A DNA stretch of 47,948 nucleotides. Origin: Halomonas halophila. Its GTDB lineage: Bacteria > Pseudomonadota > Gammaproteobacteria > Pseudomonadales > Halomonadaceae. Positions 14,722 through 19,339 of this stretch are shown piece after piece. The stretch spans positions 1 to 47,948 of the forward strand of contig DJIP01000269.1 of NCBI GenBank assembly GCA_002433675.1, in the 5' to 3' direction. The notes beneath the pieces were generated by a model. That model worked only from the letters and a program-made list of their open reading frames with translations. It searched no databases and was not told the origin of the DNA. The position numbers and the translations under genes are program-made. The number at the start of each line of letters is the position of its first letter. Position 1 is the first letter of the stretch.

Positions 14722-15537
14722 TTAAACGCGTCGCGGCGCAGGTGTCGTGATGCCACTGGCCGGGAGCGTCTTGTCCAGGTCTCGGGCGGTGCGCTCGAGC
14801 AACAGTTCGGTGGCGCGGCGGGCCTGCTCGGGCTGTCTCAGGCGAATCGCCTCGAGGAGCTGGCGGTGACGTTCCAGGCTATCGCCGAGTCCACGCGCAT
14901 GGCCATCTGCAGCGTCGTCCGTGTGTCCGTCAGTGGAGCTCCCGGCATGGCGCTGCGAGCGCTGGATCAGGGCGACGATGGAAGGCCTCAAAAGAAGCCC
15001 CATCTGGCGCCAGACAAGGTTGTGGCTGGCGCGATAGATGGCGTCGTGAAAGGCCACGTCGTGTTCGGCGTGGGCCAGTCGTTGTGAGGCCGCATCGGCG
15101 GTCTCTTGCATGCCGTCGAAGGCGCGCTCGATGCGTGCCAGGTCGTCGCCGGAGGCGTTAAGCGCCGCCAGCTCGCCGATATAGGGCTCCGCTGCCAGGC
15201 GAAAGGCAAACACTGCCTCGACCAGTTGCGGGTGGGGCGCGTCCAGGCTTGCCATCCAGCCGCTCATCTGCGGGTCCAGCAGATGCCAGTCGACGATATC
15301 GCGTACCACGGTGCCGCGACCGGCGGTGCGCTCGATCAGGCCCGCCGCGCTGAGTTCGCCCAGGGCGTTGCGCACCCGATTGCGGCTAGCCTCGAAGTGC
15401 TGGCACAGATCCAGCTCCCGAGGAAATAGATCCCCCGGCTGCCAGTGCCCCGACAGAATCGCCCGTGCCAGTACCTCGGCCAGCGCCGCGGCACCGCGAC
15501 CCTCGGCGGGCCTCGGGAGTGAAGCGAGAGCGTCCAT
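14722..15537 (-). CDS. dgoR: FadR-subfamily GntR regulator of the galactonate cluster (DgoR-like)
   Basis: The 271-residue protein has an N-terminal winged helix ([47 protein letters not shown]) and a C-terminal FCD domain with the metal-ligand motif [15 protein letters not shown] and a later [12 protein letters not shown]. The start is the ATG at 15537, which has GGAGG 5 bases ahead; an ATG at 15549 would add four residues. It is the first gene of the dgo cluster and its own promoter contains an inverted repeat, so it probably represses the cluster and itself until galactonate is present. The gene symbol is by context. Confidence 0.8.
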
Positions 15538-15549
15538 CCAGGCCTCCAT

Positions 15550-15592
15550 AATGTTCGACGTTACTATAGTTAATGTCAGACATTTTGGGCAA
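15550..15592 (-). promoter_or_regulatory. Sigma-70 promoter of the dgo cluster with overlapping operator
   Basis: On the minus strand TTGCCC (15592-15587) and TATAGT (15568-15563) form -35 and -10 boxes with an 18-bp spacer. AATGTTCGACGTTA (15550-15563) and TAATGTCAGACATT (15571-15584) form an imperfect inverted repeat (11 of 14 matching) that covers the -10 and spacer. This is a typical arrangement for repression by a GntR-type protein. Confidence 0.6.
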
Positions 15593-15802
15593 GGCAGGAA
15601 TGCCACGAATGGGGTAGACCTTGGTAGAAGGTGCGGTGCTGAACGCGTGCGCTTCGTAACACGCCGATTAGTGGCTGCCTGATTCTCGGCAGCCTCCGTC
15701 ATTCTGCTCTGTGCAACTCATGGGCTGACCTGCTCTGTGCCGCAGCTTACGACTGGGCTCGAGAAGGGCGTGATCAGACGCCACTCTGCGATGCAGGATG
15801 CA

Positions 15803-16801
15803 ATGACGGACCTGCCTGCCATGCGTGATAGACACGATCAGAGCTACAAGCTGCTGTTCAGCGAGCCCAGGGTAATTCGTGACCTCTTGACGGGGTTCGT
15901 CGAAGGCGAGTGGGTCGAGCGGCTGGACCTGGACAGCCTGGAGAAGGTCAGCGGCAGTTTCGTGACGGATGATCTTCGCGACCGCGAAGGTGACGTGATC
16001 TGGCGGGTGCGTTCTGGTGATGATTGGCTGTACCTTTATCTGCTGATCGAGTTTCAGAGCAGCGTCGATCCCTTCATGGCGCTGCGCATCATGACCTACG
16101 TCGGGCTGCTGTATCAGGACCTGGTGAAGCAGAGAAAGTTGTCCAGCGAGCGCAGCTTGCCGCCGGTACTGCCCATCGTCCTCTACAATGGAGAAAGACG
16201 CTGGAGTGCGGCGCAGGAGCTGTCCGAACTGATTCATCCCGTGGCGGCACAACTGGCTCGCTACCAGCCCTCGCAGTCCTATCTACTGCTGGATGAAGGC
16301 GCAATCGTCGCCGACGAGCGCTGGCCAGTGGACACCCGCAACCTGGTTGCCGCCATCTTTCGACTGGAGTATCACCACAGCCAGCAGGACGTGATCGACA
16401 CCATCGGCCAGTTGGTGGGGTGGCTGAAATCACCCGAGCAGGCTCGGCTGCGTCGTCACTTCGCGACATGGATCAAGCGCGTCCTGCTGCCCAACTGGGT
16501 ACCGGGCGGGAAGGGCGACCACGAGCAGTGGCAGGCGCTCAATGACCTTGAGGAGGTACACACCATGCTGTCGGAACGTGCTAAACGATGGCCCGAACAG
16601 TGGAAGCAGAAGGGACTCGAGGAAGGACGACGGCTAGGGCGAGAGATAGGTCTAGAGGAAGGGCGCGAGGAAGGGCGCGAGGAAGGGCGCCTGGAAACCG
16701 CGCGTAACCTGCTTGCGCGCACCGCCATGGATGACCGCGAAATCGCAGAAATCTGTGAACTCGAGCTTGAGCAGGTGGCGGGGCTGAGGAGAAAGGAGTG
16801 A
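15803..16801 (+). CDS. Rpn family PD-(D/E)XK nuclease (recombination-promoting nuclease / putative transposase)
   Basis: The 332-residue protein has an Rpn-type start (HDQSYKLLFSEPRVIRDLL) and a PD-(D/E)XK core: Asp in REGDVIW and the E-x-Q of LLIEFQSSVD, followed by PPVLPIVLYNG. A helical region and a charged tail with EEGREEGREEGR repeats come before the conserved C-terminal segment. Rpn proteins are DNA endonucleases; some E. coli members act in phage defence. The ATG at 15803 has AGGA 4 bases ahead; ATGs at 15791 or a longer form at 15737 are alternatives. No terminal repeats flank it, so it is not an IS element. A second start lies inside the gene (see 16565). Confidence 0.85.
   Translation: MTDLPAMRDRHDQSYKLLFSEPRVIRDLLTGFVEGEWVERLDLDSLEKVSGSFVTDDLRDREGDVIWRVRSGDDWLYLYLLIEFQSSVDPFMALRIMTYVGLLYQDLVKQRKLSSERSLPPVLPIVLYNGERRWSAAQELSELIHPVAAQLARYQPSQSYLLLDEGAIVADERWPVDTRNLVAAIFRLEYHHSQQDVIDTIGQLVGWLKSPEQARLRRHFATWIKRVLLPNWVPGGKGDHEQWQALNDLEEVHTMLSERAKRWPEQWKQKGLEEGRRLGREIGLEEGREEGREEGRLETARNLLARTAMDDREIAEICELELEQVAGLRRKE
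16551..16801 (+). CDS. Candidate intragenic small protein from the rpn C-terminus (RpnS-like)
   Basis: AGGAGGT at 16551-16557 is a near-perfect Shine-Dalgarno sequence, 7 bases before an in-frame ATG at 16565. Translation from there would give a 78-residue acidic/basic helical protein that ends at the rpn stop codon and carries the whole EGRE-repeat tail. E. coli rpn genes are reported to make such C-terminal proteins that block the full-length toxin. I see no clear internal promoter upstream. The ribosome site is seen directly; the function is inferred by analogy. Confidence 0.55.
16659..16694 (+). repeat. 12-bp tandem repeat in the rpn tail
   Basis: GAAGGGCGCGAG is repeated about three times (the last copy diverges at its end), encoding EGRE units. 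Copy-number change would add or remove 4 residues without frameshift. Confidence 0.7.
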
Positions 16802-17188
16802 GCTGAGTCGGTCCGATTCGCATGATGTATGCGTGTGCCAAGCTGCCGCATCGCACGGTGGCCAGGGTGGCGGTGCGGCCGAGCGCGAGGCGCCATCTCG
16901 GTTTAGGGTTACACACCACGTAAGGCAATGTAATACAGGTGTGTGTATGTAAGAGTCTAACTTTTGTTAACTCTATGTATAAGGTTTAACTTGCTGATAT
17001 AGAAGAGGTGTTTCGTTTCTTTGCGTGAAAGAGGCTCAGATGGAGGTTTGAGTGTTGCGGGTCTCTTGCCTATAAGGGAATGGCTTGTTTGGCGGTGTGA
17101 CTGGTAGTTGGCGCCGACCGGACCGATGACGGCCCACGCCTGGTGGCGTGGAAGGCTCATTTCCCGAGCAAACAACGGAGTGTTTGTC
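16802..17188. other. Intergenic region rpn-katE, partly AT-rich
   Basis: This 387-bp gap holds no gene. The part 16915-17090 is clearly more AT-rich than its surroundings. It contains an inverted repeat with AGAGT (16952-16956) and ACTCT (16970-16974) arms and a -10-like TATAAG at 16978-16983. A hairpin CCACGCC-TGGT-GGCGTGG (17134-17151) lies in the probable katE leader. I could not identify a convincing OxyR or RpoS site. Confidence 0.4.
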
Positions 17189-19339
17189 ATGGCGAAGAAT
17201 CTGTACACCCAACCGAATCGAGACGAGGCTCACGACACTGAGCATCGTACCGACGCCAACAGCAAGTCCGACAATCTCGAGACCTATCGCAGTGATGCGA
17301 CCGGGCATGACCTGCGTACCAACCAGGGCACCCGGATCGCGGACAACCACAACTCGCTGAAGGCCGGCGAGCGCGGCCCGACGCTGATGGAAGACTTCAT
17401 CTTCCGCGAGAAGATGAATCACTTTGATCACGAGCGCATCCCCGAACGTATTGTGCATGCCCGTGGCGCGGCGGCCCACGGCTACTTTCAGCCCTATGAG
17501 GCGGCGGCAAGGTACTCCAAGGCGGGACTGTTCCAGGACACCGGCAAGAAGACGCCGGTGTTCGTGCGTTTTTCCACCGTGCAGGGCGGGCGCGGGTCCA
17601 ATGACACCGTGCGCGACGTGCGTGGCTTTGCCACCAAGTTCTACACCGACGAGGGTAACTGGGACCTGGTGGGCAACAACATGCCGGTGTTCTTCATTCA
17701 GGACGCGATGAAGTTTCCCGACTTCGTACACGCGGTGAAGCCCGAGCCCCACAACGAGATTCCCCAGGGACAGTCGGCCCACGACACCTTCTGGGACTTC
17801 GTCTCGCTGATGCCCGAGAGTGCCCATATGGTGCTGTGGACCATGTCCGATCGGGCCTTCCCGCGGCACTACCGCTATATGGAAGGCTTCGGCGTCCACA
17901 CCTTCCGGCTGATCGATCGACAAGGCAAGGCTCGCTTCGTCAAGTTCCACTGGAAGCCGCTGGCGGGCACCCACTCGCTGATCTGGGACGAGGCCCAGAA
18001 GCTGTGGGGTCGTGATCCGGACTTCAACCGCCGCGAGATGTGGGGCGACATCGAGAATGGCGATGCCCTGGAATGGGAGCTCGGCATACAGGTGGTCGAG
18101 GAAGAGGACGAGCATGCCTTCGACTTCGATATCCTCGATCCGACCAAGCTGATTCCCGAGGAGCAGGTGCCGGTGACTCCCATCGGCAAGATGGTGCTGG
18201 ATCGCAACCCGGACAACTACTTTGCCGAGACCGAGCAGGTCGCCTTCAACCCCGGCAATGTGGTGCCCGGCATCGACTTCAGCAACGATCCGCTGCTTCA
18301 GGGGCGCCTGTTCTCCTATCTGGACACCCAGATGCTGCGCCTGGGTGGCCCGAACTTTCACGAGATCCCGATCAACCAGCCGGTGTGCCCGTTCCACAAT
18401 CACCAGCGCGACGCCCCGCACCGTCAGACCATCAACAAGGGGCAGGTCTCCTACGAGCCCAACTCGATCGAGGATGGCTGGCCCCGAGAGACCCCGCCGG
18501 CGGAAGAAAACGGCGGTTTCGAGAGCTATCAGGAGCGCATCGATGCCCACAAGGTCAGGGCGCGCAGTGAGTCCTTCGGAGACCACTACTCCCAGGCCAG
18601 GTTGTTCTGGCATAGCCAGAGTGACGTCGAGAAGGAGCACATTATCGCCGCTTACGCCTTCGAGTTGTCCAAGGTCGAGCGGCCCTGGATCCGTGAGCGG
18701 GTGATCAAGGAGATCCTGCCCAATATCGACATGGAGCTTGCTCGTCGGGTGGGCGAGGTGCACGGCGTCAAGCCGCCGGAGCATCCGCCGGCACCCTCGG
18801 AAGAGCTGGGTACCACGTCGCTGGACGCTTCATCGGCGCTTAGCCTGATGCATCGCGGTCAGCCGGATATTCGCTATCGCAAGGTGGCGATCCTGGCCGC
18901 CGACGGGGTCGACGGCGACCAGGTGGAAGCGCTGCAGAAGCGCCTGGAAGCCGAGGGGGCCCAAGGGCTCATCATCGCGCCATCGATGGCGCCGGTAGCG
19001 ACCGTTCAAGGCGGCACCCTGACCCCGGATGCCATGCTCAACGGTCTGCCGTCGGTGACTCTGGACGCCGTGGCGGTGGCCCCTGGCGATGACAGCGTCA
19101 AGGCGCTGGCGGGTTCCGGCCTGGGGCTTTACTACGTGCAGGAGGCCTACAAGCACCTCAAGCCGATCGCTGCACTCGGCGACGCTGCCAATGTGCTGCA
19201 GGCGGCTGGCATCGAGGTGCCGGAAGACGGCGTGTTCTCGGCGCAGACCGTGGACGATCTCTACGCCGATTTTCAGGAGGCAATTCGTGGCCACCGCGTC
19301 TGGTCTCGCGACGCCAAGGCCAATGATATGCCGGCCTGA
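17189..19339 (+). CDS. katE: Large-subunit (HPII-type) catalase
   Basis: This cytoplasmic haem enzyme turns hydrogen peroxide into water and oxygen. At 716 residues it is a clade 2 catalase. The active-site His is at about 90 (RIVHARGAAAHGYF), the distal Asn in VGNNMPVFF near 163, and the haem-binding Tyr at about 377 (LFSYLDTQMLRLGGPNF). A C-terminal flavodoxin/class I amidotransferase-like domain starts near 563 (RKVAILAADGVDG), as in E. coli HPII. The ATG at 17189 follows CGGAG; upstream in-frame codons lack a ribosome site. A rho-independent terminator follows. Confidence 0.95.
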   Translation: MAKNLYTQPNRDEAHDTEHRTDANSKSDNLETYRSDATGHDLRTNQGTRIADNHNSLKAGERGPTLMEDFIFREKMNHFDHERIPERIVHARGAAAHGYFQPYEAAARYSKAGLFQDTGKKTPVFVRFSTVQGGRGSNDTVRDVRGFATKFYTDEGNWDLVGNNMPVFFIQDAMKFPDFVHAVKPEPHNEIPQGQSAHDTFWDFVSLMPESAHMVLWTMSDRAFPRHYRYMEGFGVHTFRLIDRQGKARFVKFHWKPLAGTHSLIWDEAQKLWGRDPDFNRREMWGDIENGDALEWELGIQVVEEEDEHAFDFDILDPTKLIPEEQVPVTPIGKMVLDRNPDNYFAETEQVAFNPGNVVPGIDFSNDPLLQGRLFSYLDTQMLRLGGPNFHEIPINQPVCPFHNHQRDAPHRQTINKGQVSYEPNSIEDGWPRETPPAEENGGFESYQERIDAHKVRARSESFGDHYSQARLFWHSQSDVEKEHIIAAYAFELSKVERPWIRERVIKEILPNIDMELARRVGEVHGVKPPEHPPAPSEELGTTSLDASSALSLMHRGQPDIRYRKVAILAADGVDGDQVEALQKRLEAEGAQGLIIAPSMAPVATVQGGTLTPDAMLNGLPSVTLDAVAVAPGDDSVKALAGSGLGLYYVQEAYKHLKPIAALGDAANVLQAAGIEVPEDGVFSAQTVDDLYADFQEAIRGHRVWSRDAKANDMPA

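Follow-up and report, generated by a model that had tools for sequence, protein, structure and literature searches.

The closest described relatives of the locus considered here are the RpnL/RpnS gene-within-gene toxin-antitoxin systems of Escherichia coli, namely RpnA, RpnB, RpnC and RpnE (Zhong et al. 2023, PMC10327210). The first-pass annotation of our sequence, made from its letters alone, had noted that E. coli Rpn toxins are reported to be inhibited by small proteins made from inside their own genes, and that paper bears this out. We analysed a stretch of 47,948 nucleotides from Halomonas halophila (contig DJIP01000269.1), referred to as the window, which carries an rpn nuclease gene, rpnL, and within it a strong Shine-Dalgarno (SD) sequence and in-frame start codon for a candidate short C-terminal protein, RpnS. 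It shares with the E. coli systems a PF04754-type nuclease with equivalent catalytic residues, an internal in-frame SD and start ahead of a C-terminal domain with four-residue repeats, and the occurrence of the short gene in additional, solo copies. The start signal, its conservation (in part stricter than the encoded protein would require), the catalytic residues and the anatomy of RpnS all support the reading of the locus as a Halomonas member of this gene-within-gene family (COG5464, PF04754), to which we assign a probability of about 0.8. From the E. coli work we infer that the Halomonas short protein would be made, would bind and inhibit the nuclease and would take part in phage defence.

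The internal signal consists of AGGAGGT at 16551-16557, a 7-nt spacer (16558-16564) and an in-frame ATG at 16565-16567, all on the plus strand, from which the Rpn frame runs to a TGA at 16799-16801 and so defines rpnS (16565-16801, 78 residues). The SD is predicted to pair with the 16S tail at -13.5 kcal/mol, the unit of all SD values below, and is stronger than those of the four K-12 rpn genes (-8.5 to -10.8). The candidate starts of rpnL on the same frame and strand are far weaker, with values of -2.4 for GTG 15737, +0.4 for ATG 15791, -3.4 for ATG 15803 and -3.2 for ATG 15821. The last is probably the start of the full-length protein (15821-16801, 326 residues), because TTG takes the place of ATG 15803 in the close relative L004 and the N-terminus of a Halomonas sp. 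YLB-10 protein (P0050) corresponds to ATG 15821. The first-pass annotation had placed the SD 7 bases before the ATG, judged it better than the site of the full-length gene and expected a 78-residue C-terminal product with a repeat tail; coordinates and frame agree exactly, the energies (-13.5 vs -3.4 or weaker) uphold the comparison, and the repeats begin at residue 17 of the predicted product. Among 1,027 in-frame internal ATG, GTG and TTG codons in 38 window open reading frames (ORFs) ATG 16565 has the best SD, the runner-up reaching -11.5, although these ORFs were chosen by eye and some competing internal starts may be the true starts of over-extended frames. Random replacement of the six upstream codons by synonymous codons of the same gene reached -13.5 in 2.1% of draws (p = 0.021), and shuffling synonymous codons over the whole gene gave p = 0.017. 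Taken alone the internal SD of the window gene is only suggestive, because around 2% of synonymous draws reach the same value.

Stronger evidence comes from relatives of the gene. Within the same taxonomic family a match at an expectation value (E) of 1e-10 or lower was present in 84 of 275 genomes, and from the part of the listed matches that was fetched (112 loci, L001-L112) we drew 88 full-length genes, the window's included, whose best tblastn match spanned at least 150 residues, started by query residue 20 and reached residue 270; L054, L092 and L107 with interrupted frames were excluded. The internal site of each gene was chosen via a short motif and the sites were afterwards found to share one alignment column. 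A start codon stands at this column in all 88 genes (87 ATG and one GTG, in L048). The SD reaches -6 or better in 81 of them and -5.8 in a further six, and is poor only in L019 (-2.2). The first-pass annotation had proposed the alignment of homologues as a check on the internal pair, and these counts (start codon 88/88, SD of -5.8 or better 87/88) speak for its conservation. In 70 of the 88 genes (37/47 in clade A, 33/41 in clade B) no other internal start matched the one at this column, the directly following codon excepted. The two clades mostly differ in the residues encoded by the SD (EVHxM vs EDKxM) while the distance from AGG to the start is equal.

Codon choice at the site indicates that more than the protein is conserved. 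Glu four residues ahead of the start is encoded by GAG in 87/87 genes and the remaining gene has Gly encoded by GGG, which preserves SD pairing, whereas GAG makes up 51% of all 2,845 Glu codons of the 88 genes; these counts are not independent trials because the sequences are related, and after clustering at 80% identity the column is GAG in 35/35. The picture from a plain synonymous-codon null is less clear; in clade A the observed mean SD energy of -7.95 compares with -4.21 under this null (combined p over representatives 0.0018).

Signals of this kind extend well beyond the family. A sample of the class (matches in 40 of 369 genomes, 30 loci used) and a set of named genomes (46 loci) together gave 76 new loci, of which two were skipped as copies of family genes, one had no match and nine had short frames; after leaving out 11 Halomonadaceae repeats (L147-L156 and L169) from the remaining 64 we retained 53 genes, which with the 88 above make 141 genes and 48 representatives at 60% identity. 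A start with an SD of -6 or better lies 40-130 codons before the stop in 50 of these 53 genes. Across the 48 representatives the best start in the last 45-130 codons has a mean SD of -8.44, compared with -4.67 and -4.52 in two equal upstream windows and -6.91 in synonymous shuffles; an SD of -6 or better occurs there in 45 representatives vs 14 and 9 in the upstream windows, and 41 lie below their own null mean (Wilcoxon test 6e-9; single-gene p values combined by Fisher's method 0.012). Four genes (L122, L132, L134 and L166) have their best start elsewhere in the tail and not at the expected site. GTG serves as the internal start in L048, L124 and L183, and in L187 it is tied with an ATG further on; the use of GTG in these few genes suggests that initiation at this place, rather than a Met residue, is what is kept. 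As a positive control the same scan recovers the internal start reported for E. coli K-12 rpnA (M244 of the protein), and it finds strong sites at the corresponding place of K-12 rpnB, rpnC and rpnE and in the solo gene ypaA. Comparable signals were present in other gammaproteobacteria and in metagenome-assembled genomes titled Caldilineaceae, Planctomycetota and Synechococcaceae cyanobacterium; among 33 pattern matches in viral contigs no relative was confirmed.

The enclosing protein has the features expected of the nuclease. The form starting at 15803 matches PF04754 (Transposase_31, YhgA-like) with an E of 1.8e-33 and 116.3 bits against a cut-off of 21, and the nuclease part is 28% identical to RpnA over 201 aligned residues. 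By alignment D58 (codon 15992-15994) and E77 and Q79 (E77-F78-Q79, codons 16049-16057) are the counterparts of the RpnA catalytic residue D63 and of E82 and Q84, and each of the three is present in 44/44 aligned proteins. According to PMC5350276 the RpnA mutants D63A, E82A and Q84K lost all three phenotypes and Q84A remained toxic. Sequence searches against solved structures gave no match, either for the protein of the window gene (E up to 1) or for its relative P0052 (E up to 10), and a full-length model compared with the PDB gave nothing with an E below 0.001, the Cap4 nuclease entries at E of 0.26 or above not being evidence. PADLOC returned only weak matches to a 'putative invertase' model for the Rpn protein and its short form (0.022 and 0.0023).

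The anatomy of the predicted short form also fits that of RpnS proteins. A stretch of four-residue (12-nt) repeats with Gly at each fourth residue occupies 16613-16690 and ends in a perfect array of three copies of GAGGAAGGGCGC (16655-16690). Its first Gly is residue 17 of RpnS, in keeping with the RpnS feature of repeats that start 8-20 residues after the short-form Met. The start contexts differ in sequence, the Halomonas form reading MLSER after EEVHT and the RpnA form MTIAER after KESL. The number of repeats varies among close relatives, with short forms of 78 (window), 74 (P0050) and 62 residues (P0001) whose flanks are nearly identical. A Foldseek search with the short form returned nothing with an E below 0.001, and the RpnS structure 7TH0 (three helices, the first long) was absent among the best 50 matches. 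After the repeats the 88 family genes carry, by simple motifs, a helix-turn-helix-like tail (67), a DUF4351-like tail with an FG motif (16) or another tail (5), the first two each occurring in both nuclease clades as if exchanged. Two ORFs of around 100 residues (L016 1107-1412 and L108 165-470) have the same repeat-plus-tail as RpnS behind a first part that does not match Rpn, and for this reason that module may be shared with another protein family.

Short RpnS-like reading frames also occur apart from a nuclease. In family loci we found 31 such ORFs with fewer than 200 open codons upstream and a closed frame (39 motif-search hits minus eight unrelated proteins; one that was kept, L013 2877, crosses masked bases). 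They start with ATG in 30 cases and ATA in one and have an SD of -5.8 or better in 29, in a motif search that favours copies having the start region. The window's own genome holds an orphan C-terminal Rpn piece (L003/L205, G000:C102:4323-4748) with an intact 70-residue RpnS ORF and an SD of -9.7, and L203 lacks most of the nuclease part, with just 8 open codons upstream of its short ORF. The first residue of the 62-residue protein P0001 is the internal-start Met. These copies fit the short protein being a gene in its own right, but the fragments could alternatively be decaying copies. We also observed a 236-residue protein (P0098) whose nuclease part ends before the short region and a 90-residue RpnS-like protein (P0004). 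The longest contig is 13,859 bases for each, and the two may stem from a single contig and possibly from a split rpn gene.

If the Halomonas system works as in E. coli, the weak start would yield full-length RpnL, a PD-(D/E)XK DNA nuclease, and the strong internal SD and ATG would yield an excess of RpnS, the repeat-bearing 78-residue C-terminal domain alone. RpnS would then pair by its long first helix with the same domain of RpnL and, through the repeat helix that the two have in common, keep the nuclease inactive until RpnL is released by a trigger, which is probably phage infection. Of this scheme the present analysis supports the existence of two starts and the conservation of the inner one.

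Several observations weigh against a dedicated internal gene and lend themselves to an explanation in which there is no internal product, the Met and the Glu-rich stretch being kept for the protein of the nuclease tail and the SD arising as a side effect of coding rich in Glu and Gly. Much of the SD follows from the encoded protein, and the synonymous nulls are weaker than hoped: null means at the site already lie between -0.7 and -9.2, clade B gives an observed -8.79 vs -5.85 with a combined p over representatives of 0.40, and p values for single genes are mostly not significant in the family or beyond it. In clade B a second Glu column, 177 residues ahead of the start, is likewise invariably GAG. 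Opening the RNA at ATG 16565 is predicted to cost 12.6 kcal/mol, inside the range of 8.4-13.7 at other starts, so that an unusually open mRNA at the internal start is rejected, as is an internal sigma-70 promoter, no sigma-70-like promoter having been found on the plus strand of 15500-17000. A coding by-product does not however account well for one Glu column that is always GAG, for GGG in the Glu-less gene, for the three genes in which GTG replaces ATG or for the recovery of the proven rpnA start by the same scan, and we regard it as improbable.

Granted a product, it need not be an antitoxin. It may be a structural subunit or activator of a nuclease complex, in the way that Cas11d serves type I-D Cascade, and the 2:2 RpnL-RpnS tetramer published for RpnA (PMC10327210) would suit this idea as well, the anatomy of the short form being unable to tell a subunit from an inhibitor. 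The same source reports that in E. coli RpnS prevents DNA cleavage and, with it, both the SOS response and the arrest of growth, and the RpnS-like ORFs without an intact nuclease frame are unexplained by a mere subunit, though decaying copies could explain them; we hold the subunit explanation to be very improbable indeed. A DNA-binding autoregulator is suggested by the last helices of the short protein, which resemble helix-turn-helix proteins, and as its main function we consider this very improbable. The comparison with Cas11d, encoded inside cas10d, holds for the architecture, since it is likewise a second protein made from an internal start of a large gene (PMC10327210, introduction). Cas11d is a partner subunit of a CRISPR complex and, unlike RpnS, has no inhibitor role. 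To our knowledge the proteins of the Cas11d system are unrelated to Rpn proteins.

Inner copies of the short gene and their solo counterparts differ in repeats as well. In five of five close Halomonadaceae pairs of inner and solo copy (89-100% identity; L013 3071, L023 2540, L031 2805, L053 2250 on the minus strand and L091 613) the two differ by whole repeats; in the L053 pair every residue outside the differing repeats is identical, and the partner in L091 is not a free-standing short ORF but a truncated gene. Seven more distant pairs (44-65%), among them L085 of equal length, were not used. In E. coli 5,371 of 5,426 genomes have a match to the region; we fetched 18 of at least 60 listed matches and compared rpnE/ypaA loci (L116, L208-L224 and L225), where both copies were present in 17 of 19 loci, no pair coming from L216 (solo annotated as frameshifted) or L225 (no solo). 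These gave 12 distinct pairs with no match in repeat length; 1.1 matches are expected by chance and the probability of none is 0.29 by permutation, so that the excess of mismatches is not significant. In L225 (E. coli QML220614, rpnE 246-1148) the inner RpnS has the tail that normally belongs to the downstream copy, and it is not followed by a solo, as if the inner and downstream copies had been fused by deletion.

Since one added repeat abolishes inhibition in RpnC (PMC10327210), solo copies may be non-cognate by selection. A speculative and on balance unlikely extension of the gene-within-gene reading is that the internal start is ancestral and family-wide, that RpnS is self-standing and is copied or kept alone, that repeat number would be a recognition code and that solos matching their neighbour are not kept. 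Were this so, a solo copy matching its neighbour's repeats would disable the defence permanently and non-matching solos would confer immunity against other Rpn variants. Avoidance of matching repeats by solo RpnS is not established, the zero matches lying within chance expectation.

Regarding the surroundings of the gene, rpn lies between a GntR/FCD regulator gene on the minus strand (14722-15702) and a long catalase gene on the plus strand (within 17108-19339). Of ten neighbouring ORFs nine had no PADLOC match and an IclR-type regulator had weak CARF/Csa3 matches (best E 1.5e-4); the tendency of Rpn systems to sit among defence genes is thus not seen here, and because the neighbours give no or weak matches a putative phage role at this locus is argued solely from family membership. 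The closest named genome found is that of H. litopenaei (L147, 95% identical in the protein and 94.5% in the DNA across 3,990 bases), whose Rpn gene, on the same contig as L004, has an SD, spacer and ATG identical to the window's; the Halomonas sp. YLB-10 protein is also 95% identical and is shorter by one four-residue repeat. The synteny shared with H. litopenaei is lost at the rpn 3' end (window 16792-16919; L147 3990-6993; G070:C5:117233-139082), and as its catalase gene (95% identical) lies around 18 kb further downstream of rpn than in the window, an insertion, deletion or rearrangement of that size abuts rpn. The window's own genome, an assembly of 400 contigs, also encodes a second full-length Rpn, 66% identical (L002, G000:C74:3951-4925).

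Among the open-licence papers that the searches listed only PMC10327210 deals, by title and abstract, with intragenic Rpn antitoxins, and no paper on Rpn in Halomonas was found. The new element here is the comparative evidence that the internal start is maintained, part of which may already stand in the supplement of that paper. A toxin-antitoxin design that is established in E. coli, and for which production of the short protein has been shown from one C. difficile gene, would thereby extend to an environmental halophile, and the comparison indicates that the inner start signal itself, beyond its host protein, is maintained across very different Rpn genes. Comparing the repeat numbers of inner and solo copies is an inexpensive way to test how the specificity of the inhibitor evolves. 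In many genomes single annotations as 'putative transposases' probably stand for two proteins each, the smaller of them unannotated.
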